A model generated the notes under the pieces. The model was not told where the DNA came from and made no database searches. It saw only the letters and a program-made list of their open reading frames with translations. Source: Suillus spraguei (lineage: Eukaryota > Basidiomycota > Agaricomycetes > Boletales > Suillaceae). From it: a stretch of 64,000 nt of DNA. The stretch spans positions 113,309-177,308 of the forward strand of contig JABCPU010000113.1 in assembly GCA_016800925.1 (NCBI GenBank), written 5' to 3'. The position numbers were made by a program, and so were the translations under genes. This document shows positions 15,211 through 54,068 of the stretch, piece by piece (within the stretch, counting starts at the first letter, position 1; each line of letters starts with the position of its first letter).

Positions 15211-15462
15211 GACAAGTATAAGACACGCACACCCACCCTGCTTGCCCCTTGTCGAATCATTTTATCTTCTCTTCCCGTCAAATTTGCCATCATCTGAACA
15301 CCACATTCATATTTTTGTAATCCATACAGAGGTGAGCGAAACTTGAAGTCGTGCAACCCACAATTTGTTAATTAGTCCAAGTCACATCAGACACACGGAA
15401 AATACGTTGCCACACCCTCCTCAGCAGCATCGAATTGTCTTCTCCAAGTTCCTCTGCACTAC
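15205..15462 (+). promoter_or_regulatory. Core promoter and 5' UTR of GTPase gene 1 (conserved in three copies)
   Basis: A TATA-like GACAAGTATAAGAC sits with GTATAAG starting at 15216, 247 bp upstream of the ATG. The same block recurs before GTPase 2 (GTATAAG at 17491, 254 bp upstream) and before the pseudogene (about 19314, 250 bp upstream), followed in each by a CACCC/CTTGCCCC motif. A GTGAGC donor-like site near 15333, with a matching GTAAGT in copy 2, suggests a 5' UTR intron. Confidence 0.65.
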
Positions 15463-17480: not shown

Positions 17481-17744
17481 GTCTGGACAAGTATAAGACC
17501 TGCACACCCACCCTGCTTGCCCCCTGTCAAGTTGTCTCCTGTTTTCTTGCCTACAAAGTCGTCATCAGCTGCACGCCGCATTCACATCCAAGTTGCTGTA
17601 ATCTATATATAGGTAAGTGAAGCTTGAAGTTCCGCAGTTCACAATTGGCTAATCTTATTCTAAGTCGCATTGGACGCGCATAGAAAACACGTTACCACGA
17701 CACCCTTCGCAGCAGCGTAAAGTCCCCAATTTTCTCTGCACTGC
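17481..17744 (+). promoter_or_regulatory. Core promoter and 5' UTR of GTPase gene 2
   Basis: GGACAAGTATAAGACCTGCA at 17485-17504 with the downstream CCCACCCTGCTTGCCCC block, parallel to GTPase 1. A GGTAAGTGAAGC donor-like site lies near 17611 and a matching CTAAG acceptor near 17663. Confidence 0.65.
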
Positions 17745-26649: not shown

Positions 26650-28101
26650 ATGATGTTCCCCGCTGGATGCTTGTGGACACTCCTGACTTTGTCAATCTCA
26701 ATCATGGGTTCGCCCGTTGAAGTTCGCAATTCCCGCATTACCCTCCCCATGACCACCAGGCTACATTTCTCCAATGATACCAACCCGGTGCAGCGTGATG
26801 ATATTGATGTTCCTTTGGAGAACGTTCATATGGTCTCCTGGGCATCTATTGGCGTTGGCGGTAACCCCACATTCTGTAAGTTCAACACTGAGAAAATATG
26901 AATATGCGGTTGCTAATGTATTATTAAAGACCGCTTGGTTGTCAACACCGGGAGCGCGATCACATGGATTGGCGCCGTGGTCGACACTGTGTCCCGCCCA
27001 ACCGGTACCGCCACCAACACTGAGCTTCAAATGGAGATAATCTACTTTGATACTACTTCGCCGGTATGACATACAACAATATTATAAGTTGAAAATACCT
27101 ACGATAATCTATAGGAATACTATTAACCGATACCCTCTGGATCACTACCCCTAATGCCAGGTACACCATCGACGAGATGCCCATTGGTGTTACCGTTCCT
27201 TCAACGTGGGGCATGCCTTATGACGGCATGCTTGGCATCGGGCCTCAAATCTTGTCACGCGGGACCATTATAATGCACCCGGACAGAACGTTTCGCACTG
27301 TCACTGAACGCCTGTTTGCGCAAGGCAGCATTTCTCTGCCCCTTGTTGGTCTCTTTTTCAAGCCCTCCACTGAGGTACTCGATGATGATAATGGAATGCT
27401 CGTCTTTGGTGATGAAAACCCTGACATTAACATCGGCATCATCAGATACACGTAAGCTACCTCAGCTCCTGGATCAATCCAGACTGATAGTAATGATTTT
27501 GTTTCAGTCGTCTCAGCCGCAAGTTGTCTGTATCGGACTATTGGGGTATCGATCAGGCCATCAGATATGGCAACGAGGTGATCTTACCATTTACCGCTGG
27601 TATCGTGGATTCTGGCACCACTTTTATTTGGATTGCCCCCGGTGTGTATTTAGAGTCAGCGAGTAATAATGATCTAATCAACGTTTGATAGATGCCTACG
27701 ACAGGTACCAGACTGCAACCGGCGCTAATTTAGATCCGAATGGAATGCTCTCTATTACCCTTGAGCAGTACCATGCCTTGCAGCCCTTGGCATTTCATAT
27801 TGACGGAGTACGTCAATTTTGGCAGCCCTCACACCCCTTGTTCACTCACCATTTTGCATGGCAGGAAATCTACAATCTGTCCCGTAACGGCCAAATATGG
27901 CCTCGTTGGCTCAACCACAGGATTGACGGTGCTCCCAATGGTATATATCTCGTCATTAAAAGCCTTAACAGACCTGCTGGCACTGGGATTAACTTTCGTC
28001 TTGGCTACGTATTCCTCCAGCGCTTCTACAGTGTGTACGATGACCACAACTTCCGTATTGGTTTTGCCACAACCCCGTACACTGATGCCGACACGAACTA
28101 A
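26650..28101 (+). pseudogene. Pepsin-like (A1) aspartic protease, polyporopepsin type, U1 copy with 1-nt deletion
   Basis: Secreted A1 peptidase family. The start MMFPAGCLWTLLTLSISIMG looks like a signal peptide, followed by a propeptide. Exons read on through ENVHMVSWASIGVGGNPTF, LVVNTGSAITWIGAV, MPYDGMLGIGPQ, GMLVFGDENPDINIG, TAGIVDSGTTFIWIAP and FLQRFYSVYDDHNFRIGFAT, with the stop at 28099-28101. The second active-site motif DSGTT is intact. The first reads NTGS instead of the expected DTGS, and the GAC to AAC change lies in a CpG. At about 27051, U1 reads GATACTACTTC where U2 reads GATACCTACTTC. The 1-nt loss shifts the frame before the following GTATGA donor. The gene is therefore probably inactive. 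Five introns fit GT-AG. Confidence 0.8.
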
Positions 28102-31461: not shown

Positions 31462-32800
31462 ATGAAGGATTAGGGAACTGCATGGGTAAACCCGCGGGTA
31501 TGATCAGTTGGACCCGTACCTGTACCTGCAGATATACCCATACCCATGGTGCGGGTACGGGTTTTCCTGTGAGTATCAACATAATGGACCTGGGGTATTA
31601 CCCGCGAGGGGTATACCTGCAGGTCACTTGACAATGGATAGGACAAAGTAATTAATAGCATGAGATAGTAACAATACCTCAATATTGATTCTATCCCAAC
31701 CCTCATCCATTGCGTCCTCTTTGCCAATGACATCTGGGAGCTTAGAGATGTTGATGACATCCTCAGATTCGATAAGGCCCAATTTGCTCCATAAGCCGAC
31801 ACAAAGCAGCGCACATGTTGACTGCGCTGATAAACGATTTCTGACGTGTGACAGGATGAGATGTCCGCGACTGAAGAGTCATTCGACATCTACAGATGTT
31901 GCTATAGGCAATGTAAGCTTACAAAATATTTAAAAAGGCACACTACATACCAGGGATAGTTAGATAGTCAATGGCCATGCGTGACAGCTGGGGGAATGAT
32001 TTCTTGTGTTCATGCCACCAAGCAATAGGGTTGGTAACACGCTCTACATCTGTACTAAGGTAGCGGTCAAGTTCAGAGCCGGAGTTAGTAGGTTTTGGGG
32101 CTGTCAGTGCTGGGAGGTTGTCAAAAATGTTGTCGCTCTAAAAATTATTTAGTACGAACACTGAACAAGAATCAAATTGAAACATACCATCCATACACCA
32201 CTGTTTGACTCCAAGATGTCATCCTCACACCCCAAATCAGAGCCGTCATGGAGAGACAGGTAGAAACATTCAAATTTTTCATGCACAAGTTGCTCTGCAG
32301 TTTTGATCCAGTCATCTTCCCAATGTGCTGCCTTGAAGTATGATAACTTATGTCGGGGATGTAACGCTAGTATAATAAAACTGTCAGTAAAGAAAAACCT
32401 GCAAACATTGAGTAGAACTTACCCATAGAGATTTGATATGTGCGAGACCTCTCTGTGAGCTGATAGTACCGGTTGAGTGTTTTTTTGGCAAGCTGAACTG
32501 CCTGAACGAATAGAGGGTAAATATTTCTTATTGCGTGAATAGGATGTGAGCATCTTGTCAACATGATCCATTGCTGGTATCACTGTCACAAGGTTAGGTG
32601 TTGCACATGAGAAGTAAAGCGTGGCATCCTTTAGAATCTAAGAAGAGCAAACATAAGCATATGCGCCAAAGTGTCAAACAAGGAGTGCAAACCTTTTAGT
32701 ATATCATACAATTGCTGTAGTATTACCCACCATTATCCTCCAACTCATACTTCCGTAAACCCAAGTCTCGCCATTGTGTAACGGTATCTACGGCTCCCGA

Positions 32801-34212
32801 TGTAACAAACATATTGGCACTGGGCTTAAAACCCCATATTTTTGACACTTGTCTCACGTCTACAGGAGTTACCACTTGTCCATGGCCGTCTTACCCCTTT
32901 AGCAGTACCGGTGGCATCCCACACTTACCACACACCATACCGACTGCTGCACCTCATTCCATGAACCGATGTCCTTCCATGTCCTTGCCACGTCTGTGTC
33001 ACGAATTCCAAATACAAATCATTACTCTTTCCTCAATTTCCTAAAGCATCTAAACCCAGCGTTAAGACAAACACAAACTCCATTGAAATCCCTATAACTG
33101 CTTCTATAACCGAACTTCCTGATGAAGATGAAGAGATCTTTGATGATGCTATCGGATAAGATAAGATAAGATAGTGTCACGTGATCTTAGAACCTTCTAG
33201 AATATGATGTCATAACAATGTCACAATCATCACATCGTACGATTCTCATTTCTATTTTATGATTGGCTAGTAGTTTCAAACTCAGTTTATATCTCAGTTT
33301 CAATATGTGTATATAGTTAGCTAGTTTCGTTGTAGTAGTTCTTTAGTTCAAACCTCTTGTATCTACACTTGTAGCAATCCAAGACGTCCTTGCTCTTCTC
33401 TCTCTCTTTGTGATAACTTTGTTTGAGTCCTAGTCTCTGCCCTTGCGTTAATTCGTTTGTGGGTTGTGACAGTCTGCATAGCTCCATTTGGTGCGTAGTT
33501 TGTTTTCTGTTCGTTATCACTGATTCCACGGCAAGCCTTATTACATGTTGCCTCGTGCCGCAGCGCCTCGCGCTATGTTTACTTACGGCGGTTACTACAC
33601 TCCAGCGTACTGATCTCGCCTAGAGTATTCCAAGTACATATGATTTAGGATATAAGCACCGCGTACCCCGCATGATACAAGTACCTGATTTTACACCATT
33701 GCATGTACTATAGGTCAGGATTACTGTCTAGCTCTGGATCTACCCAGTAGTGGACATAGTCTTTAAAGTTCCTTATCGCTCATTAATACATCACGCTCCT
33801 TCTCCGTTACCGCTGGACTTTCGACTGTTACTTTGATTGAACTTCTCACGCACTGCTACTTTATCGCTGAAAGTACTGCAGACTTCTTTACTTTTTTTTT
33901 GCACCGCTCGCAACCTTACCGCTACCGCTAAGACCACACTCGACATCGCTCGCTCGATGCAACTGTTACTGACTTTATCTTGACCGTGGTAGCACCGCTA
34001 CACATGACACTTGTTCCGGCAGTATCATCGCTGACCTCAATGTTTGTTTCGCAAATAAGTTAGACTCGAACTTGACCATACTAAATAGGCATCCCCCTTT
34101 AGGGTCGAATGCTCTTGTTCTTACAAGTGAAGCAGACTAGACGGAGCACAAGACTAACATACTAGTTTAGGCAGTGGTTTATCTACAGCCCAAGCTAGGT
34201 TGTATCTTTACA
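32801..34212 (-). mobile_element. Element N copy A (in hAT-1), itself carrying a solo LTR
   Basis: In the reverse orientation relative to the family convention (forward is TGTAAAGATACAACC...ATGTTCATTACA). It starts TGTAACAAACATATTGG and ends GTTGTATCTTTACA. The 4-bp flanks are CCGA (32797-32800) and CCAA (34213-34216), consistent with a CCGA duplication decayed at CpG. Removing the nested solo LTR leaves about 932 bp. Confidence 0.8.
32997..33471. mobile_element. Solo LTR (family L3), 475 bp, nested in element N copy A
   Basis: Runs TGTCACGAATTCC...GGGTTGTGACA with a perfect 5-bp target duplication, GTCTG, at 32992-32996 and 33472-33476. The host element reads continuously across the removed segment. 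It contains tandem GATAAG motifs at 33155-33174. Confidence 0.88.
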
Positions 34213-35021
34213 CCAATGTTCAAGTGTGTAGTCCAACATATCAAACATTGAATTCCATTGTGTGGCCACATCTCGTGGTAATCAGGGTTTGGGGTTCCGA
34301 CAAGTCCTTGAGAATGGCATTCCAAGCAGGAAGGATGATAGTAGTCGAATTTATGGTCTTGTATGCAAGCTTGCGCACCTGGAGCAATTGTGTTCAATAG
34401 TGAGTTTTCTTTTGTTGCATGCACTTACTTTGACAAGCGCTAATTTGACTGGTCTAATCTCTTTGTTTAGTGTGGCCCGCTCTTTCTTGTCCAACAACTC
34501 AACCTCGTCAACAAATCCATCATCATTATCTACCTCGTCTGTCATCCCTGTGTCCTCTTCCATATCTGCATCAGTTCTTCCAGTTCCATGTCAGTACTAT
34601 GCCCGAATGCTTCATTGGCCTCTTGTCTCTTCACATCGAATTCCCGGATCAACGATTTGGCCACCAGGTTCACAGTGTGGAGGAAACACCTAGTGTGAGT
34701 GGTTGGTCCACTGAATTCCAGCACCTTACCACTCAGTTCACGAATCATGGTGTCATTGTTGGATGCATTATCACAAGTGACGCTAAGGATCTGTGCAATG
34801 TGGTTTTAATTGCATGTAAGTTTGTTCAATTTTTTTTGGATCAATACCTTTTCTGATATGCCGAAATCTTCTAGCACATTTGCAGATGTCTCCGCAAGCT
34901 CTTCACTGGTGTGGGACTATGAAGCTCTTAGCTTGTGGTACCCGTACCCGTGACCCGTACAGGTTACCCGTACCTGTGGCCCGTACAGGTTACCCATACC
35001 CATGCAGTTCCCTATGAAAGA

Positions 35022-35876
35022 TACCTTTGGCACTGGACAACTTTTTCTGGCCATACAGCTTCCAGCAGCCTCCACTTTCAACAAGCTCCACATGACCACT
35101 AAGTAGATTCATGAGTCCTTAATATTGTAGTTGTGTGAACTATAGAAGAATTAAATACTGCTCCTGTCAAATATAGTCATCAATCCTCCAAGAAATTTGT
35201 GTTGTGAGTACATAGTCATGACTCTGTGTACATTTAGACTACAATAAGCAGTTCATGATGAGATTGTGAGATTGTGACATCACTGTGTGCAAGAAATTGT
35301 AGTGCAGTTGCATACTCTTTGTTCGACATGCTTGTTTTTCCTTTTGGGTTCTAGTAAGTAGGATCTGATATAAGACAAAGGATCAGTTTGATGACCTACA
35401 TAGTAGTATCTGCAAAATGAGAAGCAACTTGCTCAAACTTCAAGTTGGCTTTCTCAACCAGGCATGTACTATAATCATGAAGGTACCGATACTACTAAGG
35501 TTGCAGAAGAAAGTTGGAAGAAAGTGGAGAGATAATTAGCTGGACGTCTGATGGAGAGTCTACTGAGTTTGTTACTTTGTCGAAATATTGATAAATCAAA
35601 GTTTAAAAAGAAAGGAAGTCATCTTCATCTTTGTCCTCATCCTCATCATCAAACTGTTCATGGCCCTCATCACCATCAGCAAGCTCTTCATGGTTTGTGT
35701 CATCAACAGTATTCATGGCATCAGCTGGTGTCATTGACTCAAGACAATCTCTGGTTATCCTTCATAGCATTGCCAGGTGACTGACATCAAATGGGGTATA
35801 CTGCATGAACATATTGTGGTCAGCAAATCTGGCTCAAAGGTTGAGGGTTATATGTCATGAGAAAGGATATCTATAC
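35022..35876. other. Ancestral unit sequence downstream of the Plavaka-like coding part
   Basis: Collinear with 61567-62397 in U2. A minus frame is rich in Asp/Glu (DDTNHEELADGDEGHEQF in U2) and may be an acidic C-terminal tail of the Plavaka-like protein. Otherwise no gene was recognised. Confidence 0.4.
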
Positions 35877-36733
35877 TTACATCTCCATGTAGAGTTCTTC
35901 CCAATCATCTAGTTCCTCCACAGAACATGCCAACAATTTGCCATAGCGAAGGGAGCTTGTACCACATCCTGATGCGAATGTGGGAATTAGGTGAGCTCCT
36001 TGAATTACTTGATTTGGATTGAGAAACCCAAATGCATCAGGGTCTGATTCCTCGACAAAGGTGACCTTGGGAAGATGAGCATACTTCATGCTGGATGTGT
36101 AGGTCTGTGGCAGCGCTAGCCATCTAACCCAGAGAACTTCAAGGTGCTGCTTTGCAGGTTGGCCTCCCACATTCAACCATGTCTCTATGTGATAGATACT
36201 GAGTATGCAAGCATACCAGTATGGATGGTTAGGTGTTGTTTCCCCCAAAATGTTATGAACTGGAGTGGCATCACCAACGTCAGTGAGAAGACACAGCTGG
36301 TCTGTTGGGAAGTTCTACAATGCTCAGACAAGAGCAAGGCCTAGAGAGTACAAGGAGGAGTCCAAGTATGATCAAGGATTCATTCTAAGAGTCGCAACTC
36401 AAAGACAAGGTAGAATAGAGACTAAGACTAAGGAGTGCTTAGACTTAGAGATGATTCAGATGACTAAAGATTGGAGGTCTTTAGTGAAGGAGATTCCAGG
36501 TAAAACCCAGTAAGATTAAAGTAAGGAATCTACTACAAGTACACCATGCTTATATAGGTAAACATATGCGCACAGACCAAGCAACAACAGGAAGAGAAAG
36601 TAACTGCATATCCTAATAAGGAAGGCATGTGTAGTATAAGCATGTTGAGATGCACATATTGGTGCTGGCCTTAAACCCTATCTTTTGGCGCATGTCTCAT
36701 GTCTATAGGAATCTCCACCAGTCCAAAGGCCGT

Positions 36734-37662
36734 TGTTAAGATACAACCTAACCTGGGCTGTAGATAAACTACCTCCTAAGTTAGTATGTGTGGTCTTGTG
36801 CTCCATCTAGTCTGCTTCACTTGTGAAACAAGAGCGTTCGACCCTAAAGGGGGATGCCTGTTAGTATGGTCAAGTTCGAGTCAAACCAATGTGCGAATGT
36901 AGATCGTAGTCAGCGGTAAGTTGCCGGGTCAGCAATGATGCCTGAACTAGCGTGTATGTAGCGGTACTAGCGTTGTTGAAAAAGTCAGTATCAGTAATGT
37001 GAGTGAGCGGTGGTGAGCGATAATATCAGCGTAGTGGTAAGGTTGCGAGTGGTGCAAAGAAACAGTAAAGAAGGCACGGTACTTTCAGCGGTAAAGTAGC
37101 GGTGCATGAGAAGTTCAGTCAAATAGCAATCAAAAGTCCAGCCAGTAACAAAGAGAATGAGCGTAAATTGATTAACAAGCGATAAGGAACTTTAAAGACT
37201 AATCTACTACTGGGTAGATCCAGAGCTAGACAATAATCCTGACCTATAGTACATGCAAAGGGGTAAAATCAGGTTCATATCGTGCGGGTAGCGGTGCTTA
37301 TATCCTAAATGTATGTACTTGGAATGCTCTAGGCAAGATCAGTAGCGCTCAAGTATAGTAACTGCCCTATGTAAACATAGCACGAGGCGCTGCGCACGAG
37401 GCAACATGTAATAAGACTTGCCATGGAATCAGTGATAACGAACATAAACAAACAACACCAAATGGAGCTATGCGGATGGGCAAGGACATGGGAGGACATG
37501 GTACTGGAATGTGGTGTGGCAGTTGGTATGGTGTGCGGTAAGAGTGGGATGCCACGGGAGTGCTAAAGGGGTAAGACGGCCATGGACAAGTGGTAACTCC
37601 TATAGACGTGAGATGAGTGTCAAAAGTAGGGTTTTAAGCCCAGTGCCAATATGTTCATCACA
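36734..37662 (+). mobile_element. Element N copy B (forward, nested in another element N)
   Basis: Runs TGTTAAGATACAACC...ATGTTCATCACA, 929 bp. The flanks are CCGT (36730-36733) and CTGT (37663-37666). Uninterrupted relatives of the host copy read GGCCGTCTTAC at this place, so the original target was CCGT. Confidence 0.85.
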
Positions 37663-37976
37663 CTGTCTTACTCCTTTAGCATTGCCAGCGGCATTCCATG
37701 CTTACCGCACACCGTACCGACTGCACACCACATTCCATGTACCAATGTCCTTCCATGTCCTTGCTGCATCCGCATAGCTCCATTTGGTGCATAGCTTGTT
37801 TTATGTTCATCATTACTGATTCCATGGCAAGCTCTATTACATGTTGCCTTGTGCCGCAGCCGCCTCGTGCTATGTTTACATACAGCGGTTACTCTACTTG
37901 AGCACTACTGATTTTGCCTAATGCATTCCGAGTACATACAATTTAGGATATAAGCACCACGTACCCCACACAATAC

Positions 37977-38451
37977 TGTTACAATCGTACATGCCCCTAT
38001 TCATTTTCTTACCTCATTTACCGTGTATATTACATAACATGACTCTGACTCATATGCTCAACGCATCTGTACCATAGTTGCCTTCCTTCTTTGGATACGC
38101 ACATACATTCTCACACCCTTCTTGGTCTGTGTGCACATATTGGTCTATTTAAGCACAGTGTACTTGTAGTAGATTCCCTACTTTAATCTTACTGGGTTTT
38201 ACCTGGAATCTCCTTCGCTTAAGTCTCCAACTTAAGTCGTCTTGAATCGCCTCTAAGTCTAAGCACTCCTTAGCCTTAGTCTCTATTCTTGCGGATACCT
38301 CTTAGACTTATCTTTGAGGCTGAACCCTTGATCGTACTCGGAACGCGTTCCTTGTACTTTCACCTTGCTCTCTTTTGAGCATTGTAAGAACTCCCAGCAG
38401 ACCGTCTGTGTCTTCTCACTGTCGCTGGTGATGCTACCCCAGTTCGTAACA
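37977..38451 (-). mobile_element. Solo LTR (family L4), 475 bp, nested in element N
   Basis: Runs TGTTACAATCGTACATG...CCCAGTTCGTAACA, the reverse complement of the L4 at 36251. It has a perfect 5-bp duplication, AATAC, at 37972-37976 and 38452-38456. Confidence 0.9.
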
Positions 38452-39011
38452 AATACAGCACCTCATTTTCACCATACTATAGGTCAGGATCAGTGTCTAG
38501 CTCTGGATCTACCCAGTAGTGGACTTAGTCTTTAAAGTTTCCTTACCGCTCATTAATCAACATCGCTTGTTCACCATTACCACTGGCACACCACTAGATC
38601 CTTGACCCCTATTTTGACTGAACTTCATGCTCACTGCTACTCTACCGCTGAGAGTACCACAGACTTCTTTACTGTTTCTTTGCACCACTCACACCTTACC
38701 ACTACCGCTGACCTTATTGCTCGTTATTGCTCACTCGACGCTACATTTACAAGTATTATCTCTGCAACAGTAGCACCACTACATATGATGCTAGTCCTGG
38801 CAGCATCATCGCTGACTGCAGCAACTTACCACTGACTACGACACTATATTTGCACATTGGTTAGACTCGAACTTGACTATACTAACAGGCATCCCCCTTT
38901 AGGGTCGAACACTCTTGTTTAACAAGTGAAGCAGACTAGATGGAGTGCAAGACTCGCATACTAGCTTAGGCTGTGGTTTATCTACAGCCCAGGTTAGGTT
39001 GTATCTTTACA

Positions 39012-39541
39012 ACAATAAACAAGCGATATCGGTTAACGAGTGGTAAAGAACTTTAAAGACTAAGTCCACTACTGGGTAGATCCAGAGCTAGACACTAATC
39101 CTGACCTATAGTACGGTGAAAATGAGGTACAAATGAGGTACTGTCTTGTGTGGGGTACGCGGTGCTTATATCCTATATTGTATGTACTCAGGATGTGTTA
39201 GGCAAAATTAGTAGCACTCAAGTACAGTAACTGCCATATGTAAATGTAGTGCGAGGCGGCTGTGGCACGAGGCAACATGTAATAAGGCTTGCCATGGAAT
39301 CAGTGATCATGAACATAAAACAAACTACACACCAAATGGAGCTATGCAGACAAGGCAAGGACATGGAAGGACATCAGTACGTGGAATGTGGTGTGGCAAT
39401 TGGTATGGTGTGCAGTAAGTGTGAGATGCTGCCGGTAATGCTAAAGGAGTAAGACAGCCTTGGACGAGTAGAAATGCATATAGATGTGAGATGAGTGCTA
39501 AAAGATAGGGTTTCGAGGCTAGCACCAATATGTTTGTTACA
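39012..39541 (+). repeat. Element N fragment, 5'-truncated
   Basis: A forward partial copy corresponding to about the last 530 bp of the family. It begins near the ACAAGCGATATCGG segment and ends ATGTTTGTTACA. It is joined tail-to-head with the preceding reverse copy. Confidence 0.7.
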
Positions 39542-42163
39542 CTGGTTATGAGACAAGTAAACGTAAACAAGTCATGATGTACAAATGAATAGGAAAATGA
39601 ATAGGGGCACATACAATTGTAACACAAAAGTACCCTAACATCTGCGTGCATTTGAGGGTTGATAGTATCATGCTCACGCCTTAGGTTGTATGTAGTGTAA
39701 TTGACCTGCATGGTCTGGACTGAGTAAATTATATTGTTAGGAATAATTACTGAATTATGTTTCTTGTCCATGAAGGTGTGATTGCAATAAGTAACATCCA
39801 GTTTCCAAAGCCTGTAAAGGATGTGATCCTTGAGTTTTGAAACAACATTCTGATAACCATTGTGAGAAGACTGATGTGTGTCCTGATTACAATATCACGC
39901 CTACCTTGACCACCAGATCACCATCATGTTTCCAAAGAAATGAGAATAAACAGACCGGATTACTCTGATTGGTTGCAATGTGGTGATGGTCTCCTGAGGA
40001 TGCTGAAGGGGAGACATCGGCAGGTGATTGGCTATCAGATGAGCTTACGCCTCCCACTTCTGACACACATTGAAGCACATGGCACCTATGCTCATGCTTT
40101 GCTAACTGTGCCTGGGTGTCTAGTTTACTGGTCAGTGGGTAAAAAGCTTTGAGGGCTTTGTGTGCAAGCTCTCCCTAGCAAAATCTAATGTCAGTTGGAT
40201 AGTGGAAGTGTAGCATTGTGATGTATGCACCATTTGAGTAGTGAAAGAGTCTGTTGACCTGAAAAGCTTGATGGTTCTCATGTAATCTCCCATCACATGA
40301 AATTTGTAGGTGCCAAGATTAAGCCTTTTTGCCCTCAAACCATTTGAATCTGGAGAGGTGGTGTTTTTGGGGAGTTGTGCAAGCCTTTGCAGACAAGCTG
40401 CTTTCTCTCTCGGTAGTTCAGTTGTAGTGAAAGTGGCACAGGTGACACATTCACATTTTCACAAATTTTGAGAGAGCTCTCTAAATGTTTCTTTGAGAAA
40501 AGTTAATTTAGAGTCTGAGTACATCCTGAGTTTTGCAAGTGCATGCCACTGTGCAAATTGATCCAGTAGAGACTGCACAGCTGTATTATGTTTACGAGGA
40601 AATAATCCTTCAAAAACTGGAATTGCACACTGAGGATATAAGACACATTAGCAGGCTTAGTGCAGAGAATTTTAGGATATAAAAACTTGTAGGATGTCTT
40701 CAAAGTCATGTGCTGCCAATTGCTCAATTTCAGAGGTGTTGTTTGCGAACCTTTGAATTGTGCCATTGCCAAAGGTCAGAACCTGGCCAAATCTACAGTG
40801 AAGTTAAAAGCAGTTAGCACATAGCAGAGCTTTGTATCAGTTTTTTTATACCTGCTGTCAAAGGTCATGACTAGCTGACTACTGTGGGGAAGGGCATACA
40901 GAAGCCTAACCAGATGGATAAAGAGTGACTTCCAAGTACCCAACTCACACTCATGCATCAAAATGAGTTGAGTCCAAGTGGTCCAAGCTTCTCAACAAAT
41001 CAATTCTATGAGCAGCAGTCTGAACCAATCCAAAATTGTAAAAAGCCATTTGTACTTACCAAGGTAGGTACCCAAGAACCCTCTCCAAGAGTGTCTTCAA
41101 CTTTCGAACCATCTATGGTATTTCCCCACATGTAGATATACTGACAAGCCATGATGACTTTGGCCATAGTATATATGCAGAGATTTTCCATGCGACTTCT
41201 CATGTCCATCAGTAGACCAAGTGAATTAAACTTTTTTTTTGGGCATGAGGCAGCGAGGGCATGTGCAAGTGCCCATATCCTTGATGGTTGCAATTAAAAC
41301 CCTGGAAATTTATGAGTGATCTGACAAGTTTAATAAAAGCAAAGCAGAAATGTACTTCTCAGGATAGTCAGCAGAATATGTGAAGATTCGGGGAAATACT
41401 CTCCATAGCACCCCATCAGCACATTTTAGAACAATACCATGGTAATATGCTTGGAGAAAGTCTTCATCAAGTAAGATTTCCCAGCACCCTTGAAACAACT
41501 CTCTATGGCAGTGGGTTCAAAGAGATGCCATGCCTGTCTTGGATATATGACACAGGCTGCTCAGAATGTCCTTCACATTGTCAGGAAGCTGGTAAATGCA
41601 GCTGTCATCAATACCAGTAGAAAATCATTCTGCAAGCAGGACTTACCAATGGCAAAAGACCCAATAAGTGGCATGCTCCTGATTGAGGTGATGATCATGT
41701 GTACTTGGTCAAATTCCTGAAATACAGGTAAAGGGGCCAAGCTTTCGCAGTTCTAAAATTTGCCAAGTGGGTAGCATCTGAGACAAATGTGAGGCCCGCT
41801 ATGACATGTTCCAAAGAGCAACCAGATTCCTTTGGCGGCGCTGAAGATTGTCCTGAGCATCCAGCCAGGAATCGCAGGTGTGAAGTTTGTCAAATATTTG
41901 TTCTTCAATGGTAATAACAATGTGGAAGCTGTCTATGAGGTCGACCTTGGTTTCGAGCCAAATGCACTCCCACTCATCCAGCTCATGGGTACCGATATCA
42001 GAACACATTCCACCATATGAACGTGCTAGTGAAGCGAGTCCTTCTTCATATGCTTGTGTGAGTCCTGTCATGAAATCCTGGTCCTTCACAAATGGATGCA
42101 CAAGCTCAGGGGGACAACCAGAGAGCAGATTGACAAAGCAGTGTGCAGTTTTGTGGATGCCAT

Positions 42164-43110
42164 TGTAAAGATGCAACCTAACCTGGGCTGTAGATAAATT
42201 ACCTCCTAAGTTAGCATGTGAGTCTTGCGCTCCATCTAGTCTGCTTCACTTGCAAACAAGAGTGTTCACCCTAAAGGGGGATGCCTGTTAGTATGGTCAA
42301 GTTCAAGTCAAACCAATGTGCAAATGTAGCATCATAGTCAGCGGTAAGTTGCATGGTCAGCGATGATGCCACCGGAACTAGCGCCGTATGTAGTGGTGCT
42401 ACCATGGTTGAGATAAAGCCAGTAACAGTAATGTCGAGTGAGCGATGGCAAGCGATGATATCAGCGGTAGTGGTAAGGTTGCGAGCGGTGCAAAGAAACA
42501 GTAAAGAAGACTGCAGTACTTTCAGTGGTAAAGTAGCGGTGCGTGAGAAGTTCAGTCAAAATAGCAATCAAAAGTCCAGCGGTAATGGAGAACGAGTGTG
42601 ATTGATTAACGAGTGATAAGGAAACTTTAAAGACTAAGTCTACTACTGGGTAGATCCAGAGCTAGACAATAATCCTGACCTATAGTACATGCAAAGGGGT
42701 AAATCAGGTACTGTATTGTGCGGGGTACATGGTGCTTATATCCTAAATCATATGTATTTGGAATACTCTAGGCGAGATCAGTAGCGCTCGAGTGTAGTGA
42801 CTGCCGTATGTAAACATAGCATGAGGTGCTGCGGCACAAGGCAACATGTAATAAGACTTGCCATGGAATCAGTGATAATGAACATAAAACAAACAACGCA
42901 CCAAATGGAGCTATGCGGACGCAGCAAGGACATGGAAGGACATTGGTATGTGGAATGTGGTGCAGCAATTGGTACAGTGTGCAGTAAGCGTGGGATGCTG
43001 CCGGTAATGCTAAAGGGGTAAGACGGCCATGGACAAGTGGTAACTCCTATAGACATGAGATGAGTGTCAAAAGATAGTGTTTTAAGCCTAGCACCAATAT
43101 GTTCATTACA
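42164..43110 (+). mobile_element. Element N copy C (in the CUE3 fragment), 947 bp
   Basis: Runs TGTAAAGATGCAACC...ATGTTCATTACA. The flanks are CCAT (42160-42163) and CTGT (43111-43114). The intact CUE3 gene reads GGCCGTATAAACC at this site, giving a direct empty-site proof that the target was CCGT. Confidence 0.93.
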
Positions 43111-43477
43111 CTGTATAAACCCGCAGAGCGGGATGGTTCAAGAAGCATAGTCAGTACAGGGACCATATCTGAAGTGAATACGGTAGCAAGGCTTGGTGTG
43201 CTGGCAAGGGCTGCAGAGAAAAGGGCACGTACGTGGGTTGGGTAAGGGAAGTATGCAATAGCGATATCCAGGAGTGTCTTCACATCAAAGCAAGATGGTA
43301 CAATAGCTAGTTTCTCCGCAAGGAATAGGACGCACACATGTACATGGTTATCTGTGAATGGTGGCACATCCCATACCAAAGTTTGCAGGGTTTGATGGGC
43401 AATATCATTGACATAGCTGGATAGAAATCTATGGGTGGCAGGGGTGTCTCGTCTTGCGGGAGGTAGTGCAAGGATTT

Positions 43478-43749
43478 TGTTAGAAGTGGAAGCTAAGGAC
43501 GAAGTCTCGGCGTCTAAGAAGAACTGCTTTGATATTAACAATACCTAAGGATGAAGTCTAGAGACGAATTAACATAAGAGAAAGTCGGCGTGCATGATAG
43601 ACGAGATACATACCTCAGTGTCTAAGAAGAACTGCTGAGGTATAAACAAACAAGAACATAGAGCTTATAAGGTAGTTTATGTAAAGCATCCATGATGACA
43701 AATGAAAGAGAGAATGAGAAATCTAAGTGTCAATGTTGTACGTCCAACA
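43478..43749 (-). repeat. Copia 3' LTR (left), 272 bp
   Basis: Runs TGTTAGAAGTGGAAGC...GTACGTCCAACA. Differs from the right LTR by a few substitutions and short indels, including extra bases near 43685 and 43725. Confidence 0.92.
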
Positions 43750-43819
43750 CACCCCCTCAATGAGACACTATGAGTTAACTGCACCCCCTTAACAAGATAC
43801 TAAAGCCAGACCAGAGCGG

Positions 43820-44770
43820 TGTAATGAACATATTGGCGCTAGGTTTAAAACCCTATCTTTTGACACCCGTCTCACATCTATAGGAGTTACCACTTGTCCA
43901 TGGCCGTCTTACCCCTTTAGCATTACCGGTGGCATCCCATGCTTACTGCACACCGTACCGACTGCCACACCTCGTTCCATGTACCGATGTCTTTCCATGT
44001 CCTTGCCGGGTCCACATAGCTCCATTTGGTGCGTCATTTGTTTTATGTTCATTATCACTGATTCCACAGCAAGTCTTATTACATGTTGCCTCGTGCTGCA
44101 GCACCTCATGCTATGTTTACATACGGCAGTTACTACACTCGAGTGCTACTGATCTTGCATAGAGTATTCCGAATACATACAATTTAGGATATAAGCACCA
44201 CGTACCCTGCACGATACAGTACCTGATTTTACCCCTTTGCATGTACTATAGGTCAGGATTATTGTCTAGCTTTGGATCTACCCAGTAGTAGACTTAGTCT
44301 TTAAAGTTTCCTTATTGCTCGTTAATAAATCACACTCGTTCTCCATTACGCTGGCATACTGCTGGACTTTTGATTGCTATTTTGACTGAACTTCTCATGC
44401 ACCACTACTTTACTGCTGAAAGTACCACGGTCTTCTTTACTGTTTCTTTGCACCGCTCACGACCTTACCACTACTGCTGATATCATCGCTCACTCGACGC
44501 AACTGTTACTGACTTTATCTCAACCACGGTAGCACTGCTACATATGACGCTAGTTCTGGCAGCATCACCGCTGACCGGGGCAACTTACCGCTGACTACAA
44601 CACTACATTCACACATTGGTTTGACTTGAACTTGAACATACTAACAAGCATCCCCCTTTAGGGTCGAACACTCTTGTTTCACAAGTGAAGCAGACTAGAT
44701 GGAGCACAAGACTCACATGCTAACTTAGGAGGTAGTTTATCTACAGCCCAGGTTAGGTTGTATCTTTACA
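43820..44770 (-). mobile_element. Element N copy E (in copia 3' region), 951 bp
   Basis: Runs TGTAATGAACATATTGG...GTTGTATCTTTACA with flanks GCGG (43816-43819) and GCAG (44771-44774), consistent with a GCGG target decayed to GCAG. Confidence 0.88.
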
Positions 44771-46164
44771 GCAGTGTTGAACAAAAATCAGATGAGGCAG
44801 GATTTTGGTGAAGATGTTGGCAATGTTCTTGTGAGTGGAGAGCCAAATAGGTAGGAAAGTGCCTTCTTCAATGTGGCAGCGGATGAAATGATATTGCAAG
44901 TCTATGTGTTTGGTTCAAATATGGTTTGTGGCCTCTTTTGATAGGGCAATAGCTCCTGCATTGTCGGTGAACAAATGGAGAGGGAGTGCAAGGGAGATGC
45001 CAAGGCAGCTAAAGAATGACTTCAACCACAAACCGTCTTGAACCGCCGTTGTCAAGGCCATGTATTCAGCTTCCATTGATGACAAGGCATGAGTTGTTTG
45101 CTTCTTGGCGGAATGTGAGATCAGACCCCATTGTAGAACCACACATAGCCTGACACCGAGATCCTGTCCTCAGGACAGGATGCCCAATCCAAGTCGTTGA
45201 AACCATGTAGGGCTGGATTAACTCCAGCACCCCCATAATGCATTCTTGTGCTAATGGTACCCGCAAGATATCAAAGGACATGCTTGGCTGCCTGTAATGG
45301 CATGATTCTGGCGATGAGTTGTGTTGCACGAGACGCATAACAGTATGGGCAATGTCAGGGTGAGTGTACATTGCGAGATACAAGAGTTCACCTACAAGCT
45401 TGCAATATTTGGTGGGTAGATCGTCGACATGGGGGTGGACATTGGTTGGTCGTCCGAATGGAAAGTTTGGGTCCATGGGCAGCGTCACAGAGTTGCAGTC
45501 AGACATACCATGTTCCTGCAGTAGGTAGATGATGTAGTCTTCCTGATGCATCCACAGTTCTCGTGTCTGACATGTGCAGATGAACTCAATGCCAAGATAT
45601 TTTGTGACTGGGCCTAGATCAGTTATTCCGAAGTGTTCTGCAATTTGTGCTTTGGTTTGGTCGAGGAAACAACAATTGTTTGCACCCGCAAGGCGTCATC
45701 TATGTGCCATGCAATGACGCAGATAACTCTCACCCCCTTGCCATTGACGTGGTCAAAGATGAATACGTGTAGTCTGCTTCGCACCAAAGAAATCCCAGAC
45801 ATGTGAGAACTGATCAGAGCAGCCCATACCAGTTGTATGCGGCTTGCTTTAAGCCATAGAGAGATGACAGAAGGTGTGCCACCAATCATTGACCATCCGG
45901 CCCCAAACATTCAAAACCCAGTGGCTGATGCATGTAGACATTCTCTTGTAGCTTACCCCACAGAAATGCTTGGCGGGCATTGAAGCAGTCGAGCTCCCAG
46001 TCATTGGCTGCACTGTAGGCTGCAAGAACCTGGATGGATGCTGCCTTCATGACTGGTGCAAACGTCTTCCCAAAGTCCATGCCTGGGATCTGCGAGAATC
46101 CTTGGGCGACAAGTCTGGCCTTAGAAACCTGCCCTCCCTTCAGATCCTCCTTGAACTCCAAGAC

Positions 46165-47498
46165 TGTTACAACCATGCAAAACTGGGGCTACTAAGAAGT
46201 CCTGGTCTTACATGGGATTGTACCAGAGGGATGGAAAGTCAAGGGGCTTGGCCTCAGCTCGTATGCTGTGCCCCTTACCCAAGTATGTGCCCTTAATTTT
46301 GGATGAAGTCCAAGGGGAGTTATAGTGAAGTCCGGACAGAGTCTGGATGAACTCTGTAGGACAGGATAGCTTGATAGAGCTCCGAAGGACTTCCGGATGA
46401 GCGCCGGAACGCGCCAGAACTATATTTCCGGATGGTAGGGAGTAATGGTAAGACTACTGGAACAAGTTCCAAGTAGAATGAATGAAGGATGGACTCCTGG
46501 ACAAAGTCCAGGGCAGGATAGGAGCAAAGCTCCGGAGGGACAGATGATCCATAGGTGTCAGAGGATAGGATAGGATAGATCCGAGGACCAGAGGTCCGAA
46601 GGTCTGGAGCTCAGAGGAGTGGAAGAGTGGAAGAGCGGATGATTGGATGATTGGATGAGCGTAGCTCTATGGATCTTAGGGGAAGTGTTAACTACTAGAG
46701 GGAGTAGGTCCGGATATGGTATAGAAATAGTATAGACTACTCGACAAGGTCCGGAATAGAAAACAGAAACTACCAAAGGTAGAGTCAGAGGTGAAACAGA
46801 TGAGAGACAGGAAACGGACAAGTCCGAAAAGGATATAGGACATGGATCAAGCTCCGGCCTAGGGAATGATCCCATAGGCTGAGTCGGAAGCTTACAAGGG
46901 CCGGAGCCCAAGTGCAAGAACGGAAACGGATTATATAGACATGATAACAGATACAGAGTAATCAAGGAATATACAGAAGTAGGAAAGCAATGATCAGACT
47001 GAGGTCTGCAGGAGTTGTACTACAAGTTTATATACTGTAGGTAGCATGCCGGAAGGCAAGTAAGGATAGTCCGAGGCTATGTTGAGGCATTGCGGAACAC
47101 AAGGCTATGAACTCGGAAATAAGACTTGTACGAAATATCTTATCAAGACGAAGTCAAGATAACCGAAAGCCAGAGGTGCAGAGATAACCGAAAGCCGGAC
47201 ACAGGTATTTAACCTAAAAGGAGTAACGCAGGTGCCGGGAATAGTTTCGGATATGAGCATGGATCGATATGGACATGGATTGGATATGGACACAGATTGG
47301 ATATGGACATGGATGGATATGAACATGGATCGGATGGATGGACTGAGTTGGATATGGATATGGATTAGTTATGCATGGATATGGATTGGAGTGGATGGAT
47401 GGATCAGACATGTGAGCTGGATTGGATGGGTGGACTAGGATGTATGGATTGGGTGTCCGGATGTCCATGGATCAGACCTGAATGTATGGTATATGACA
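46165..47498. mobile_element. Solo LTR-like insertion (family L5), 1334 bp, in copia RT
   Basis: Runs TGTTACAACCATGC...GGTATATGACA with a perfect 5-bp AAGAC duplication at 46160-46164 and 47499-47503. Removing it rejoins the reverse transcriptase frame (..AIGCHWV to LEFKEDLKGG). The interior holds recurring TCCGGA/GGTCCG motifs and a GGATATGGACAT minisatellite. No coding domain was seen. Confidence 0.85.
47255..47470. repeat. GGATATGGACATGGAT-type minisatellite inside L5
   Basis: About 215 bp of degenerate tandem units built from GGATATGGA, CATGGAT and GGATGGAT blocks. Translated frames give repetitive Tyr/Pro/His/Ser or Met/Asp/Trp strings that should not be taken as genes. Confidence 0.85.
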
Positions 47499-47921
47499 AA
47501 GACCCAATGACACCCGATTGCTTGATGGTCCTCTGGTAAGGGAACAAGTTCATAGATGTTCATTTCAGACATTAAATTGATTTCCTTATGCATTGCTGCA
47601 AGCCAGTCATCAGCATCAGGTGCGTATGGCCTCGTCGTACATCACAGGTGGAACTGCCAAGTTGTAACCAGGGGCATGAGGGTTCTGTCGAGTGTCGCTG
47701 CAAATGGATAGGCATGCTACTTCACTGGTGATCAGATTGGCAAGTGTTTGGGGAAAACCTATCTCTTCATGTCAGGTATGATCGTGTCAGGGTCCACTGC
47801 GAGCTGATCAGATGGGCCGTCAACAGGATCGGGAGTGTCGTTACAATGCGCGCTATGGATATATCAGCAGATTGAGCAGGAGGAGGTGGGACTCCCTGAA
47901 TCTTGGCTGCCCAAATCTCAC

Positions 47922-48875
47922 TGTAAAGATACAACCTAACTGGGCTGTAGGTAAACTACCTCCTAAGTTGATTTGTGGTCTTGCGCTCCATCTAGTCTGC
48001 TTCACTTGTCAAACGAGAGTGTTTGACCCTAAGGGGGGATGCCTGTTAGTATAGTCAAGTTCGAGTCAAACCAATGTGCAAATATAGTGTCGTAGTCAGT
48101 GGTAAGTTGCTGCAGTCAGCAATGATGCCGCCAGGACTAGTGTCATATGTAGTGGTGCTACCATTGCAGAGATAATACTTGTAAACGTAGCGTCGAGTGA
48201 GCAATAACGAGCAATAAGGTCAGCAGTAGTGGTAAGGTGCAAGTGGTGCAAAGACACAGTAAAGAAGTCTGCGGTACTCTCAGCGGTAGAGTAGCAGTGA
48301 GCATGAAGTTCAGTCAAAATAGGGGTCAAGGATCTAGTGGTGTGCCAGTGGTAATGGTGAACAAGCGATGTTGATTAATGAGCGGTAAGGAAACTTTAAA
48401 GACTAAGTCCACTACTGGGTAGATCCAGAGCTAGACACTGATCCTGACCTATAGTATGGTAAAAATAAGGTACCAGTCAGTGTGGGGTACGTGGTGCTTA
48501 TATCCTAAATTGTATGTACTCGGAATGCATTAGGCGAAATCAGTAGCGCTCAAGTACAGTAACCGCTGTATGTAAACATGGCACGAGGCAGCTGCGGCAT
48601 GAGGCAACATGTAATAAGGCTTGCTGTGGAATCAGTGATAACAAACATAAAACAAGCTACGCACCAAATGGAGCTATGTGGACATGGCAAGGACATGGAA
48701 GGACATCGGTATGTGGAATGTGGTGCAGCAGTCGGTACGGTGTGTGGTAAGCATGGAATGCTGGTGGCAATGCTAAAAGGAGTAAGACGGCCTTTGGACT
48801 GGTGGAGATTCTTATAGACATGAGATGTGTGCTAAAAGATAGGGTTTCAAGGCCAGCGCTGATATGTTCATTACA
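47922..48875 (+). mobile_element. Element N copy F (in copia, between integrase and RT), 954 bp
   Basis: Runs TGTAAAGATACAACC...ATGTTCATTACA. The flanks are TCAC (47918-47921) and TCGT (48876-48879, followed by G). Both derive from TCGC by CpG transitions, on opposite strands. Confidence 0.8.
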
Positions 48876-51595
48876 TCGTGCTGTCAGGCGAGTCGTGACT
48901 AATCAGAGGCCAGGCAATTCTTAAAACCTTGACCCTTTGTTGTGAGGACAGGAATTCACAAGGAACGATGAACAGCAGGAGGGGCTGTGATGGTGGGAGC
49001 TGATGCGGCAGGAACAGGCATGGGAGGAGATTTGTGAGTAGGGACAGGAGTGTCATCATCATCGTCGTCACTATCCGGGAAGGGACAGTTAGTGAAAGAC
49101 TCATCAAATATGACATCACATGAGTTAAAGAAGGCACCCGTGGTGGTATCCCTGCAATGCCATGCTTTTACACCTGGGGGGTATCCCATGAAGACTGCTT
49201 CATGTGAGCACAGGCCAAGTTTCTCTTGGAGTTCTGACAGGATGCGTGCGAAACATCTGGCACCAAAAATGCGCAAGTGAGTAAGTGTGGGCTGCATCCC
49301 ATTCAACATCTCATAAGGCATTTTTCCTGGTGGGAGGGCATGTGCTTCCAACCTGTTGAACAGATATGCAGCTGTAAGGGCAGCTTCTCCTCATAATGTG
49401 TGAGGAAGCCACGCATGATCAAGCATGGCGTACATGTGTCCTTCAATGGTGCACATGACATATTTGGCCTTCCCATTTTGCTGATGTGCATAGGGTGCTG
49501 AACGTTGTCGTTCGATCCCAGCAGACTTGAGCTCTGCTGTGAATGCATCATTAATGAACTCCCCCCCATTGTCCAAATGAAAGACTTTGACTTGAAGTCT
49601 GAACAAATTCTCCCACTTCGCGCAAATCATCTTCCACATGCCCAATGCCTGATCCTTAGAGGCGAGGAGCTGGAGATTCAGGACATGAGTGTGGTTGTCC
49701 AGAAAGACGACAAAGTAGTGTTTAGAGTGTGGAGTTGCAATGGGAATTGGCCCACAGATGTCCAAATGGATCAGCTCCAGGAATTTGGATGCACATTCAG
49801 TCTCTGAGGAGTGAAATGGGAGATGAGGATGCTTAGCTAGAATGCATGATTCACAGATTGAGAGCAGGGTGCTCGAATCAAATGACACACCTTTTGCCAC
49901 CTTGTCAAGATGTGTTACTGCGTTTTTGCCCAAATAACCAAGGTGAGCATGCCAAAGGTCAAGTGTGAGGGGAGGTTGGACAAAGGCCAAGAGTTCAGGA
50001 ACGATCAGACAAGTGGGTGGTTCAGTGGAAGGGATGAAGTTGAGATCAACAGTGTAAAGCTTTCCTGTAGCAGGAATGGCACCAAGATTAGTGCCCTTGT
50101 ATCCCAATTCACATGTCATGTTCACTTTGAAGTTGATGTCCCACCCCTTCGCATTCATGCAAGACACGAAGAGGAGGTTGAGCATTGTGTTCGCACATGA
50201 AGACAGTTTGAGGGTTGGACGTGGAGACGACATTTCCCCACAGTCATCCATACTATGCACATTCCTCGACAAGTGGTCTCTAAGACACCATGGTTTGCCA
50301 TATGCACAGGCACTGTATCTTCCATTGAGTATGTATTAAAGAAGCGATGGTCTTTTACCAGGTTGACAGTAGTGCCAGAGTCCAGAATGGTGGAGAATGG
50401 CAGAGAAATGGCGCAGGAGACATCATCTGTGAGTTCAGCGATGGAGGCAAAAGACACATTGTCATATAGGCTAGAGAGAGTGGCAGGTGCAACAACAGCT
50501 GCAATGGCAGGAGTGGAGGTGGTTGGTGCAGCTGTGGAAGGCACAGCTGCAACTGCAGCTGCAACATTTGCAGTCTCTTTCTTCTTAGCTTTCATCCATG
50601 GAGCTTGACCCTCCATGCCGCCACCCTTTCCATAGCAATGTGCATGATCATGGTCACCCTTGTTACAGCCAGACATTGTACAGAACATGCCGTCAGGATT
50701 GTGTCTATGCTTATGAAGACCGGTGATCGAATTCATGCTGGATGGGTTCATGTTGGAAGAGGTGGCTAAATTCACGTATTCCAAACCAAGACGACCAGAG
50801 TGAATGGCCTGTGCATGCACATGTCATGCAGCCTCAGCAGTAATGCGAGAAACACAGCTGTCGACCGTGAATGTGGATGGCTTGGTGGGACATGGCAGTC
50901 ATCACCTCGTCATGCATGCACTGTTCAAGCATGGATTTGAACTGTTGCCATATGGCAGTCTGAGGTAGTCCAAGGAGTAAGCTATAGATGGCATCACCAT
51001 CATTGAGAGGTGCTTTAGAATCTTGGAGGCGTTCATGTATCACAGCATGTTGACCGACATAGTTGGTCGCATCTGCAGAGTCTTTCATTCAAATAGCATC
51101 AAGCCATTGGCGAAGCTGATACTGCATGCTCGTATCAGTACGGTTAAAGTGTTTTGTGAGCGTGTTCCATGCATTGCGGGCTGATACAGTGTGTGCGCAT
51201 GATATAAGTGCTGCCACAGGTGAGCTGAGATGGTGGGTGATGAGATCTTTGGCCTTCATATCATTCAGAAGCCATTCACGTATTTCCATCTTTTCTGCAG
51301 ACGTAATATTAGCTGGATCTGTGGAATGGGCACAGATGACGGGGTCCCGAGGATGTCTGTAGGGTCAATGATTGTGTTGACCTGGCACCAAAGGTCCTCG
51401 CATGTGAGTGTGTATTGCATTTTGGTTGACCAGCCAACATAATTTTCCAATCCTAACAGTTCTGGAATATGGTCGTACTTCCCCATAGCAATACCACCAT
51501 GTGAGAAGAGCGAGATAAGATAAGATGCGTGAGCAGCAACAGAGTGCGAGGGAAGTTCAACCTAGTAGCTTCTTCTGCTGGCTCAATAAGAGCCA

Positions 51596-52652: not shown

Positions 52653-53878
52653 TCGACCCTGAAGGGGGATGCCTATTAGTATGGTCAAGTTCAAGTCAAA
52701 CTTATGTGCAAAAGAAGCATTGTGGTCAGCGGTAAGTTGCTGCAGTCAGCAATGATGCCGCCAGAACTAGTGTCGTAAGTAGTGGTACTACCATAGTCGA
52801 GATATAGTCAGAAACAGTTGCGTCGTGCGAGCGATGACAAGCGATGATATCAGCAGTAGCGGTAAGGTTGCGAGCAGTGCAAAGAAACAGTGAAGAAGTC
52901 CATGGTACTTTCAGCAGTAAAGTAGCAGTGTGTGAGAAGTTCAGTCAAAATAACAGTCAAAAGTCCAGCGGTAACGGAGAACGAGTGTGATCAATTAACG
53001 AGCAAAAAGGAACTTTAAAGACTATGTCCAAGTGTAGCGCAAGCAGTGAAGCGTGGGAAAGCGGTAAAGAGCGGTGGTGCGTGCAGCAGTAAAACAATTC
53101 TTAAGAGACAGTAACTTTGGTGAAAGACTTTATTCCGTTAGAGACAGTAGTGGTGACAATTCCTAAGTACCGTGTGTACCATAGAGGGAAAAGTAAAAGT
53201 ACCAGAATGTGCAAAGAGTCCTTTTTAACATGTACCGTGAATGGCCGGAATACATAGCGAGAACGGTAGCGAGATAGAGATATTTAGCTAAGAGGCACGC
53301 AGCGAGCAAGCGGTGTCACGGAAGGTAAGGTAAGTCTTGCCGTAGCTTTAGTAACAGCAGAAATGAATATGCTACGCACCAATGGATCTTAGATGGAAAT
53401 GGAATGGACAGGAGGACATCGGTAGCGAGATTCGGTAAGGGGCAAGGATCCACAGAGCGAAAATGGTACCAGCGAAGAGAAAAGGGGTAATGCTCACTAT
53501 AGGGGTTTTCTTGGTAGCCGCTGTAGGCAGTAACAAGAAACTTGTGTAAAACAGCACTTTCATGGTCAGCATGACTTTTTTTGCTACAGCGTGAGGCACT
53601 GCGGCATGAGGCAACATGTAATAAGACTTGCTGTGGAATCAGTGATAGCGAACATAAAACAAACAATGCACCAAATGGAGCTATGCGGACGCGGCAAGGA
53701 CACGGGAGGACATCGGTACGTGGAACGAGGTGCAGTAGTCAGTATGGTGTGCAGTAAATGTGGGATGCTGCTGGTAATGCTAAAGGGTAAGACGGCCATG
53801 GACAAGTGGTAACTCCTATAGACGTGAGACAAGTGTCAAAAGATGGGTTTTAAGCCCAGCGCCAATATGTTCGTTACA
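52653..53878 (+). mobile_element. Element N copy D in hAT-2, 5'-truncated and with foreign or divergent middle
   Basis: Starts at CGACCCTGAAGGGGGATGCC, lacking roughly the first 130 bp of the family, and ends ATGTTCGTTACA followed by CCGG. The block at about 53030-53590 is not collinear with other copies but shares short motifs with them (ACAGGAGGACATCGGT), so it may be a divergent relative or a recombinant. Confidence 0.7.
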
Positions 53879-54068
53879 CCGGGTCATACCCAGGTGCTAC
53901 CCATGGGTAAGTTGAGAAATAAAGTCATACCCATACCCATCCCGGGTCAAGTGGTATGGGTACAGGTCTACCTGTGGGTGGTATCTGTGGGTGCATGGGT
54001 CACCTGCAGGTGTATGATATATCTACTAGTAACAGTGAAATTAGGAAAGTACTACAAACATGCCAGAG

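Follow-up and report, generated by a model that had tools for sequence, protein, structure and literature searches.

The stretch of DNA analysed here (the window: 64,000 nucleotides of Suillus spraguei contig JABCPU010000113.1, C147 in our numbering, from position 113,309 to 177,308) contains copies of a repeat called element N. An earlier note on this window had proposed that N inserts with a 4-bp target duplication centred on CpG, and that it could be either a solo long terminal repeat (LTR) or a DNA element. We find that N is the LTR, mostly solo, of an LTR retrotransposon family and not a DNA transposon, and that its 4-bp target duplications have a CG centre. Genome-wide searches cover the 86.2-Mb assembly, L-numbers being loci taken from this assembly and C-numbers its contigs.

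Five copies of the N-type LTR have both ends in the window. Copy A (32801–34212, flanked by CCGA at 32797–32800 and CCAA at 34213–34216) and copy E (43820–44770, GCGG at 43816–43819 and GCAG at 44771–44774) have their sense on the plus strand. Copy B (36734–37662, CCGT at 36730–36733 and CTGT at 37663–37666), copy C (42164–43110, CCAT at 42160–42163 and CTGT at 43111–43114) and copy F (47922–48875, TCAC at 47918–47921 and TCGT at 48876–48879) are on the minus strand. The host DNA of the copy C insertion is a CUE3-like sequence, while copy B sits within another N-type LTR (36639–39011, plus strand), which is split by copy B and by a 488-bp insert (37972–38459). The sense 5′ end of this interrupted LTR is degraded, and its outer flank, after 39011, is ACAA. 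Partial N-type LTRs lie on the minus strand at 39018–39541 (outer flank CTGG) and, with an insert, at 52655–53878 (outer flank CCGG at 53879–53882), the latter outside the interval of the earlier note.

The five two-ended copies were therefore found at the places and with the flank pairs first described, together with three partial copies; the one correction is that the TCAC/TCGT pair of copy F has a further mismatch, a transition in its final base. Of 22 matches to the end motifs in the window, 13 fall in N copies as defined by BLAST, and at all 13 the flanking 4-mer was seen by eye to have CG, TG or CA at its centre. The other nine lie outside the BLAST hits and were set aside as chance.

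Length and centre of the target duplication

One end of N has 2,021 matches in the genome with up to 3 mismatches and the other end 1,408 with up to 2 mismatches, while the reversed control gave none in either case. The 4-bp flanks are equal up to transitions in 34 of 40 two-ended copies (loci and window combined), whereas pairing the flanks of different copies would give about 9, and no copy of the 40 agrees at 3 bp or 5 bp. The length of 4 bp, for which any other value had been named beforehand as a refuting point, is thus upheld. The flanks are identical in 10 of the 40, so finders that require identical duplications would miss most N copies.

CG, TG or CA occupies the centre of 71 of 74 upstream flanks and of 62 of 71 downstream flanks, against a window background in which pyrimidine–purine (YR) steps make up 25.1% of dinucleotides, CG 3.7% and TA 5.8%. 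When a strict 17-mer of one end was followed outwards across the genome, the continuation was N-Y-R at 884 sites, N-Y-Y at 9 and N-R at 6, the last being slightly undercounted because its 17-mer fixed one letter where the other two patterns allowed C or T. The observation holds well beyond the window. Among the restored targets of 39 copies CCGG (9) and CCGT (6, including a near-duplicate pair) are the commonest, accounting for 15 of the 39; ACGG was restored once, and the first position seldom has T and the last seldom A.

An LTR of another family serves as a control. It is 475 bp long and lies nested in copy A at 32997–33471 with the duplication GTCTG; it is listed on the minus strand, the forward reading of the earlier note making it plus, and neither is assigned as sense. 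The query itself aside, it has 40 further hits that are 96–97% identical, and this family is younger than N. Complete N copies are 73–90% identical to one reference copy, and so are not young. Ten two-ended cases of the 475-bp LTR were read. Five have exact 5-bp duplications (GTCTG, CACTG, CATTG, CCTGC and ATTGG), none with CG, in agreement with the lack of CG bias claimed for the neighbouring LTRs with 5-bp duplications. Of the other five, four have the inner flank TTAGGTTT in common, and in the fifth one of the two sides is purine-rich, as would be expected for LTRs of complete elements. Several copies of this LTR are spaced by about 6.07 kb within a single contig (for example on C352, C436 and C492), and such pairs are probably complete, young elements.

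Decay of the duplicated CpGs and empty sister sites

The centres of the duplications could be compared in 34 copies, namely the 33 agreeing copies of the 39-copy set minus the near-duplicate L066, plus L087 and L088. The pairs were CG/CG in 3, CG/CA in 11, CG/TG in 8, CA/TG in 6, TG/TG in 3 and CA/CA in 3, so that 28 of the 34 readable duplications require an ancestral CG. A model in which all copies start as CG and each duplicate decays independently predicts 4.6, 8.5, 7.4, 6.8, 2.9 and 3.9 for the same six classes. The classes fit a CG origin with separate decay of the two duplicates, which accounts for the mismatched flank pairs. The observed to expected ratio of CpG is 0.89 at 1–28000 of the window and 0.49 at 32797–48879, the lower value being in line with CpG decay in repeats. 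Chance or base composition as the source of the CG signal was rejected on the comparisons with mispaired flanks, with the background, with the control LTR and with the decay model.

Sister sites that lack the insertion were located for 11 of the 39 copies, and for 10 of these they are mainly NCGN or its transition products. The empty counterpart of copy C lies in the window itself at 23487–23602, where an intact CUE3 gene, 91% identical, reads CCGT; the CUE3 protein of the window is 75–84% identical to those of seven named Suillus species. For copy B there are 80 sister sites, of which 30 read CCGT, 21 CTGT and 18 CCAT, the rest being other sequences. The empty sites claimed for both copies were therefore recovered, with CCGT the commonest among the sisters of copy B. 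Elsewhere, L011 has GTGG on both sides where its sister (83% identical) has GCGG. L015 (CCAG/CCAG) has one sister with CCGG and another with CCAT, and L044 (CCGG/CCAG) has four, two with CCGG (CCGG at 95% identity), one with CTGG and one with CCAG. L021 (CCGG/CCGG) has a sister with CCGA, found twice; a short sequence present at 27404–27492 and 60098–60186 of the window matches its empty site, with CCGA in both places. The sister sites of L032, L035, L052 and L083 (86, 20, 88 and 74 respectively) are mainly NCGN or one transition off.

LTR architecture and coding capacity

The N LTR is about 950 bp long and reads 5′-TGTAAYGAACATATTGG...TATCTTTACA-3′ in the sense direction. In a complete element each LTR necessarily borders the interior with one of its ends, and for this reason we inspected the ends that break the target rule. 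There are 79 exact ends whose third outside base is a purine, and 69 of them have, by eye, a common outside sequence, CTCGCGGTGGGCTCCA-R-T, with small variations. Read on the opposite strand these ends are a primer-binding site (PBS), ...TATCTTTACA-AC-TGGAGCCCACCGCGAG, which begins 2 nt after the LTR. As the PBS is on that strand, the sense strand of N is the opposite of the one used in the earlier note. No tRNA for the PBS was found in the window, where the search gave no tRNAs at all.

The other LTR end is preceded in L011 and L114 by a polypurine tract (PPT), AAGTTCCTAGGGGA, directly before TGTAAC. The junction pattern CCTAGGRGA followed by TGTA occurs at 57 genomic places, and its reversed control at none. 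Within 12 kb of each other, PBS and PPT form 22 pairs in the right order and orientation compared with 3 in the wrong one. The distance is 3,466–3,540 bp in nine of the 22 and 1.9–7.3 kb in the others, some of which contain later insertions. Near-identical flanks or lengths recur on different contigs (L064/L066, L101/L102, and the PBS–PPT pairs of C238/C702 and C357/C858), which suggests that the assembly partly holds both haplotypes, so that genome counts may be inflated.

Two near-complete elements were read. In L114 the last 136 bp of the 5′ LTR remain, ending at 1023, and are followed by the PBS, a gag-like open reading frame (ORF) at 1059–1676, the PPT and a 3′ LTR at 5521–6469; its LTR ends are 97% identical over the 136 bp. 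Antisense ORFs adjoin the PPT in L114:4637–5367 (minus strand; MSSSTFAFDVSAPAAAVPS... and the piece after it), and Pfam gave no convincing match for them. L115, read on its reverse strand, has the outer flank CCGG, a 5′ LTR at 92–998, the PBS, a gag-like ORF and the start of a 3′ LTR at 4628, the two LTR starts being 90% identical over 267 bp. Among the 39 two-ended copies tested, six failed the duplication test, and three of these six have a PPT or PBS as inner flank; the outer flanks of the three are CCAC (L011), CCGC as listed or GCGG in sense (L114) and GCGG (L019). An interior common to many copies was not seen among the first 55 upstream and 51 downstream flanks, two of which are PBS flanks. 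The search that had been proposed for a full-length partner with an interior has thus yielded PBS–PPT interiors, but no integrase in the two copies read.

The gag-like ORFs of L114 and L115 are related to each other. Among their relatives, the named ones come from Suillus decipiens and S. spraguei; these are hypothetical proteins for which Pfam gave no convincing match, and one of them, P0126 of S. spraguei, is the same as a part of the L115 ORF except for a single gap. Pfam found no reverse transcriptase or integrase in the pieces of L114 examined, the one match, to DUF447_N, being below threshold, and tblastn with fragments of two gypsy-type pols found no pol in L114 or L115. An interior of about 3.5 kb is short for gag plus pol. 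As the two near-complete copies have a gag-like ORF but no detectable pol, the N family is probably non-autonomous, its reverse transcriptase and integrase probably coming from other elements in trans. The idea of a solo LTR family with a CpG-directed integrase is supported by the PBS, the PPT and the paired LTRs, but an integrase encoded by N itself was not found in the two near-complete copies read.

Candidate enzymes were sought elsewhere in the genome. One Ty3-type integrase family (rve) is present in 26 rows that group into 16 places, none of which is within 10 kb of a listed PBS or PPT of N. A Ty3-type pol on C318 (L099), to which this integrase belongs, was rejected as the pol of N: there N is inserted in the RNase H-like stretch (recognised by motif, with no Pfam match), and at the cut end of the integrase (rve match) of this locus lies an N-related LTR, here called X. 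Integrases of the PF24764 (rva_4) type were also rejected as partner. They have 16 genome matches, many with internal stops, and in the 10 loci excised N occurs close to only a single gene, into which it is inserted (L095 and L096, C769).

N has two related LTR types. The LTR called N2, complete at L044:525–1453 on the reverse strand with CCGG on both sides, has an N-like sense 3′ part, whereas it is the sense 5′ end of X that resembles N. X flanks were taken from 14 loci plus L099, minus two repeated flanks, and 12 of the 13 distinct flanks have a CG, TG or CA centre by eye, the miss being TCCG in L105. In the LTR of L115 the 5′ part is X-like and the 3′ part N2-like. LTRs with one N-like half and one different half were noticed in L044:525–1453, L048:1698–2348, L115 (reverse) 92–998 and L100–L113, as though subfamilies had swapped their 5′ and 3′ halves.

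Two further features of the window were noticed. Similar ORFs at 15376–16494 and 17721–18818 have a P-loop GTPase look (GSAGAGKSSFINAVRG) and appear to be a tandem duplication, their function being suggested by motif only. ORFs at 49391–50823 on the minus strand resemble, by eye, a Ty1/copia gag–pol with an integrase part.

Origin of the CG centre and comparison with known systems

We consider it highly probable that N is the LTR, mostly solo, of a retrotransposon family that is probably mobilised in trans and is inserted by an integrase with a CpG-centred 4-bp stagger, the duplicates decaying later. Members with an interior comprise an LTR, 2 nt, the PBS TGGAGCCCACCGCGAG, typically about 3.5 kb with a gag-like ORF and then sequence without detectable pol, the PPT CCTAGGRGA and a second LTR. 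The integrase would cut N-CG-N, most often CCGG, and the two duplicated CpGs would each decay to TG or CA; we infer that this decay runs via methylated cytosine. The simplest account of the centre would be that the integrase itself reads the CG step. In the retroviral intasome, bent target DNA is reported to favour a 4-bp stagger with a central YR step (PMC4422553).

Several observations weigh against this interpretation. The centre is other than CG, TG or CA in 9 of 71 downstream and 3 of 74 upstream flanks, some of which are inner flanks. Three of the 39 two-ended copies are unexplained (L073, L074 and L085), although L085, which is flanked by CCGG and GCGC, looks as after recombination between two copies. 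The 104 sister sites of L086 (TTGT/CCGT) read AGGT in 66 cases, CAGT in 17 and CCGT in just 7; this copy may have landed in a subfamily with CCGT at that spot. The interior has been seen in two copies, both nested and degraded, the gag-like ORF is so called from its position and look, having no Pfam match, and the integrase that moves N was not found.

A bolder version, to which we give a small chance, is that the integrase reads CpG directly, perhaps in methylated form, and that N is drawn to silenced, methylated repeats, among them its own LTRs, with later erosion of the CpG on which it landed. N would then be an LTR element that shelters itself by following an epigenetic mark of two bases. 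At least 5 of 39 copies (L029, L032, L052, L083 and L086) lie inside other N-type LTRs, which fits a taste for silenced repeats but could also reflect mere survival there.

Alternatively, the integrase could have an ordinary preference for a central YR step, as in foamy virus and gammaretroviruses, with CG only the commonest outcome. Retroviruses with 4-bp duplications are reported to favour central YR and to select against T and A at the two outer bases (PMC4422553), and N does likewise. This reading is improbable, since the duplications have no excess of TG/TG or CA/CA (3 and 3 seen against 2.9 and 3.9 expected from an all-CG start), and TA, although commoner in the window than CG, is the centre of 1 of 74 upstream and 1 of 71 downstream flanks. 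The viruses described in the same paper raise central YR on average by 63% over 22%, whereas in N nearly every strict end has it.

It is more doubtful still that the signal arises from the place of delivery, for example CpG-methylated silenced repeats reached via a tethering domain, and not from contact between integrase and dinucleotide. The nesting just described, in LTRs that form a small part of the genome, would favour such targeting, but it may also reflect survival in neutral DNA, and regional delivery alone cannot make CG fall precisely in the middle of the stagger in almost all copies, so its role could at most be additive. Finally, a non-autonomous Ginger1-type DNA transposon moved by a gypsy-integrase-like transposase has next to no chance of being correct: both N ends fit TGTNR and the 4-bp target resembles the CCGG/CCGT of Ginger1, but the terminal inverted repeat (TIR) of N is only about 5 bp (TGTAA/TTACA), the PBS, the PPT and the LTR pairs around an interior speak against it, and the long-inverted-repeat lookalike of N is two LTRs, one inside the other. 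That lookalike, L044:48–1453, was dissected by eye as an N-like LTR inserted head-on in another at CCGG, and its uninterrupted sister is in L012. The Ginger-like DNA element offered as an option in the earlier note is thus not supported.

With a retrotransposon inserted at CpG as our preferred interpretation, the N family, with about two thousand end matches, follows a two-base rule almost without exception. It offers a natural experiment in how the tuning of an integrase may shift from a weak preference for YR to one dinucleotide alone, and raises the question of whether CpG methylation acts as a landing mark. The decay of the duplicated CpGs also provides a rough clock for each insertion.

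LARD-type elements have LTRs with a PBS and a PPT around an interior without pol, as N probably does. TRIM-type non-autonomous LTR retrotransposons are described with the same arrangement (PMC3532108). N differs from both in its gag-like ORF and its LTRs of about 950 bp. Among fungi, crapaud of Podospora is likewise an LTR family rich in solo LTRs, with variants that diverge in the 5′ half of the LTR, though in an ascomycete host (PMC10787394).

The claim that no family with such a target had been described was too strong. In the account given in PMC2836005, Ginger1 has TGTNR termini, a gypsy-like integrase and a 4-bp duplication of a CG-centred target (CCGG 75%, CCGT/ACGG 24%). A gypsy-like integrase that comes with an OTU or Ulp1 domain is a further mark of Ginger1. 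Ginger1 is a cut-and-paste DNA element with TIRs of 40–270 bp, reported there only from four animal species, while N has LTRs, a PBS, a PPT, a looser NCGN target and end repeats of about 5 bp. The Drosophila LTR retroelement ZAM also has a highly sequence-specific, CG-rich target, but it is an animal element with a longer target, CGCGCg, and encodes its own integrase, which is reported to bind this target directly, a second binding site being needed for cleavage (PMC2527525). ZAM would thus be a precedent for direct CG readout by an integrase. These two were the sole CG-target precedents among the literature matches listed, which included no fungal LTR family with a CG-centred target. Prototype foamy virus (consensus VYRB) and other retroviruses with 4-bp duplications share with N the central YR step and the avoidance of outer T and A, but their YR preference is described as weak (PMC4422553), whereas N is nearly CG-exclusive. 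What is new in N, compared with all of these, is a nearly CG-exclusive insertion rule in an abundant fungal LTR family.

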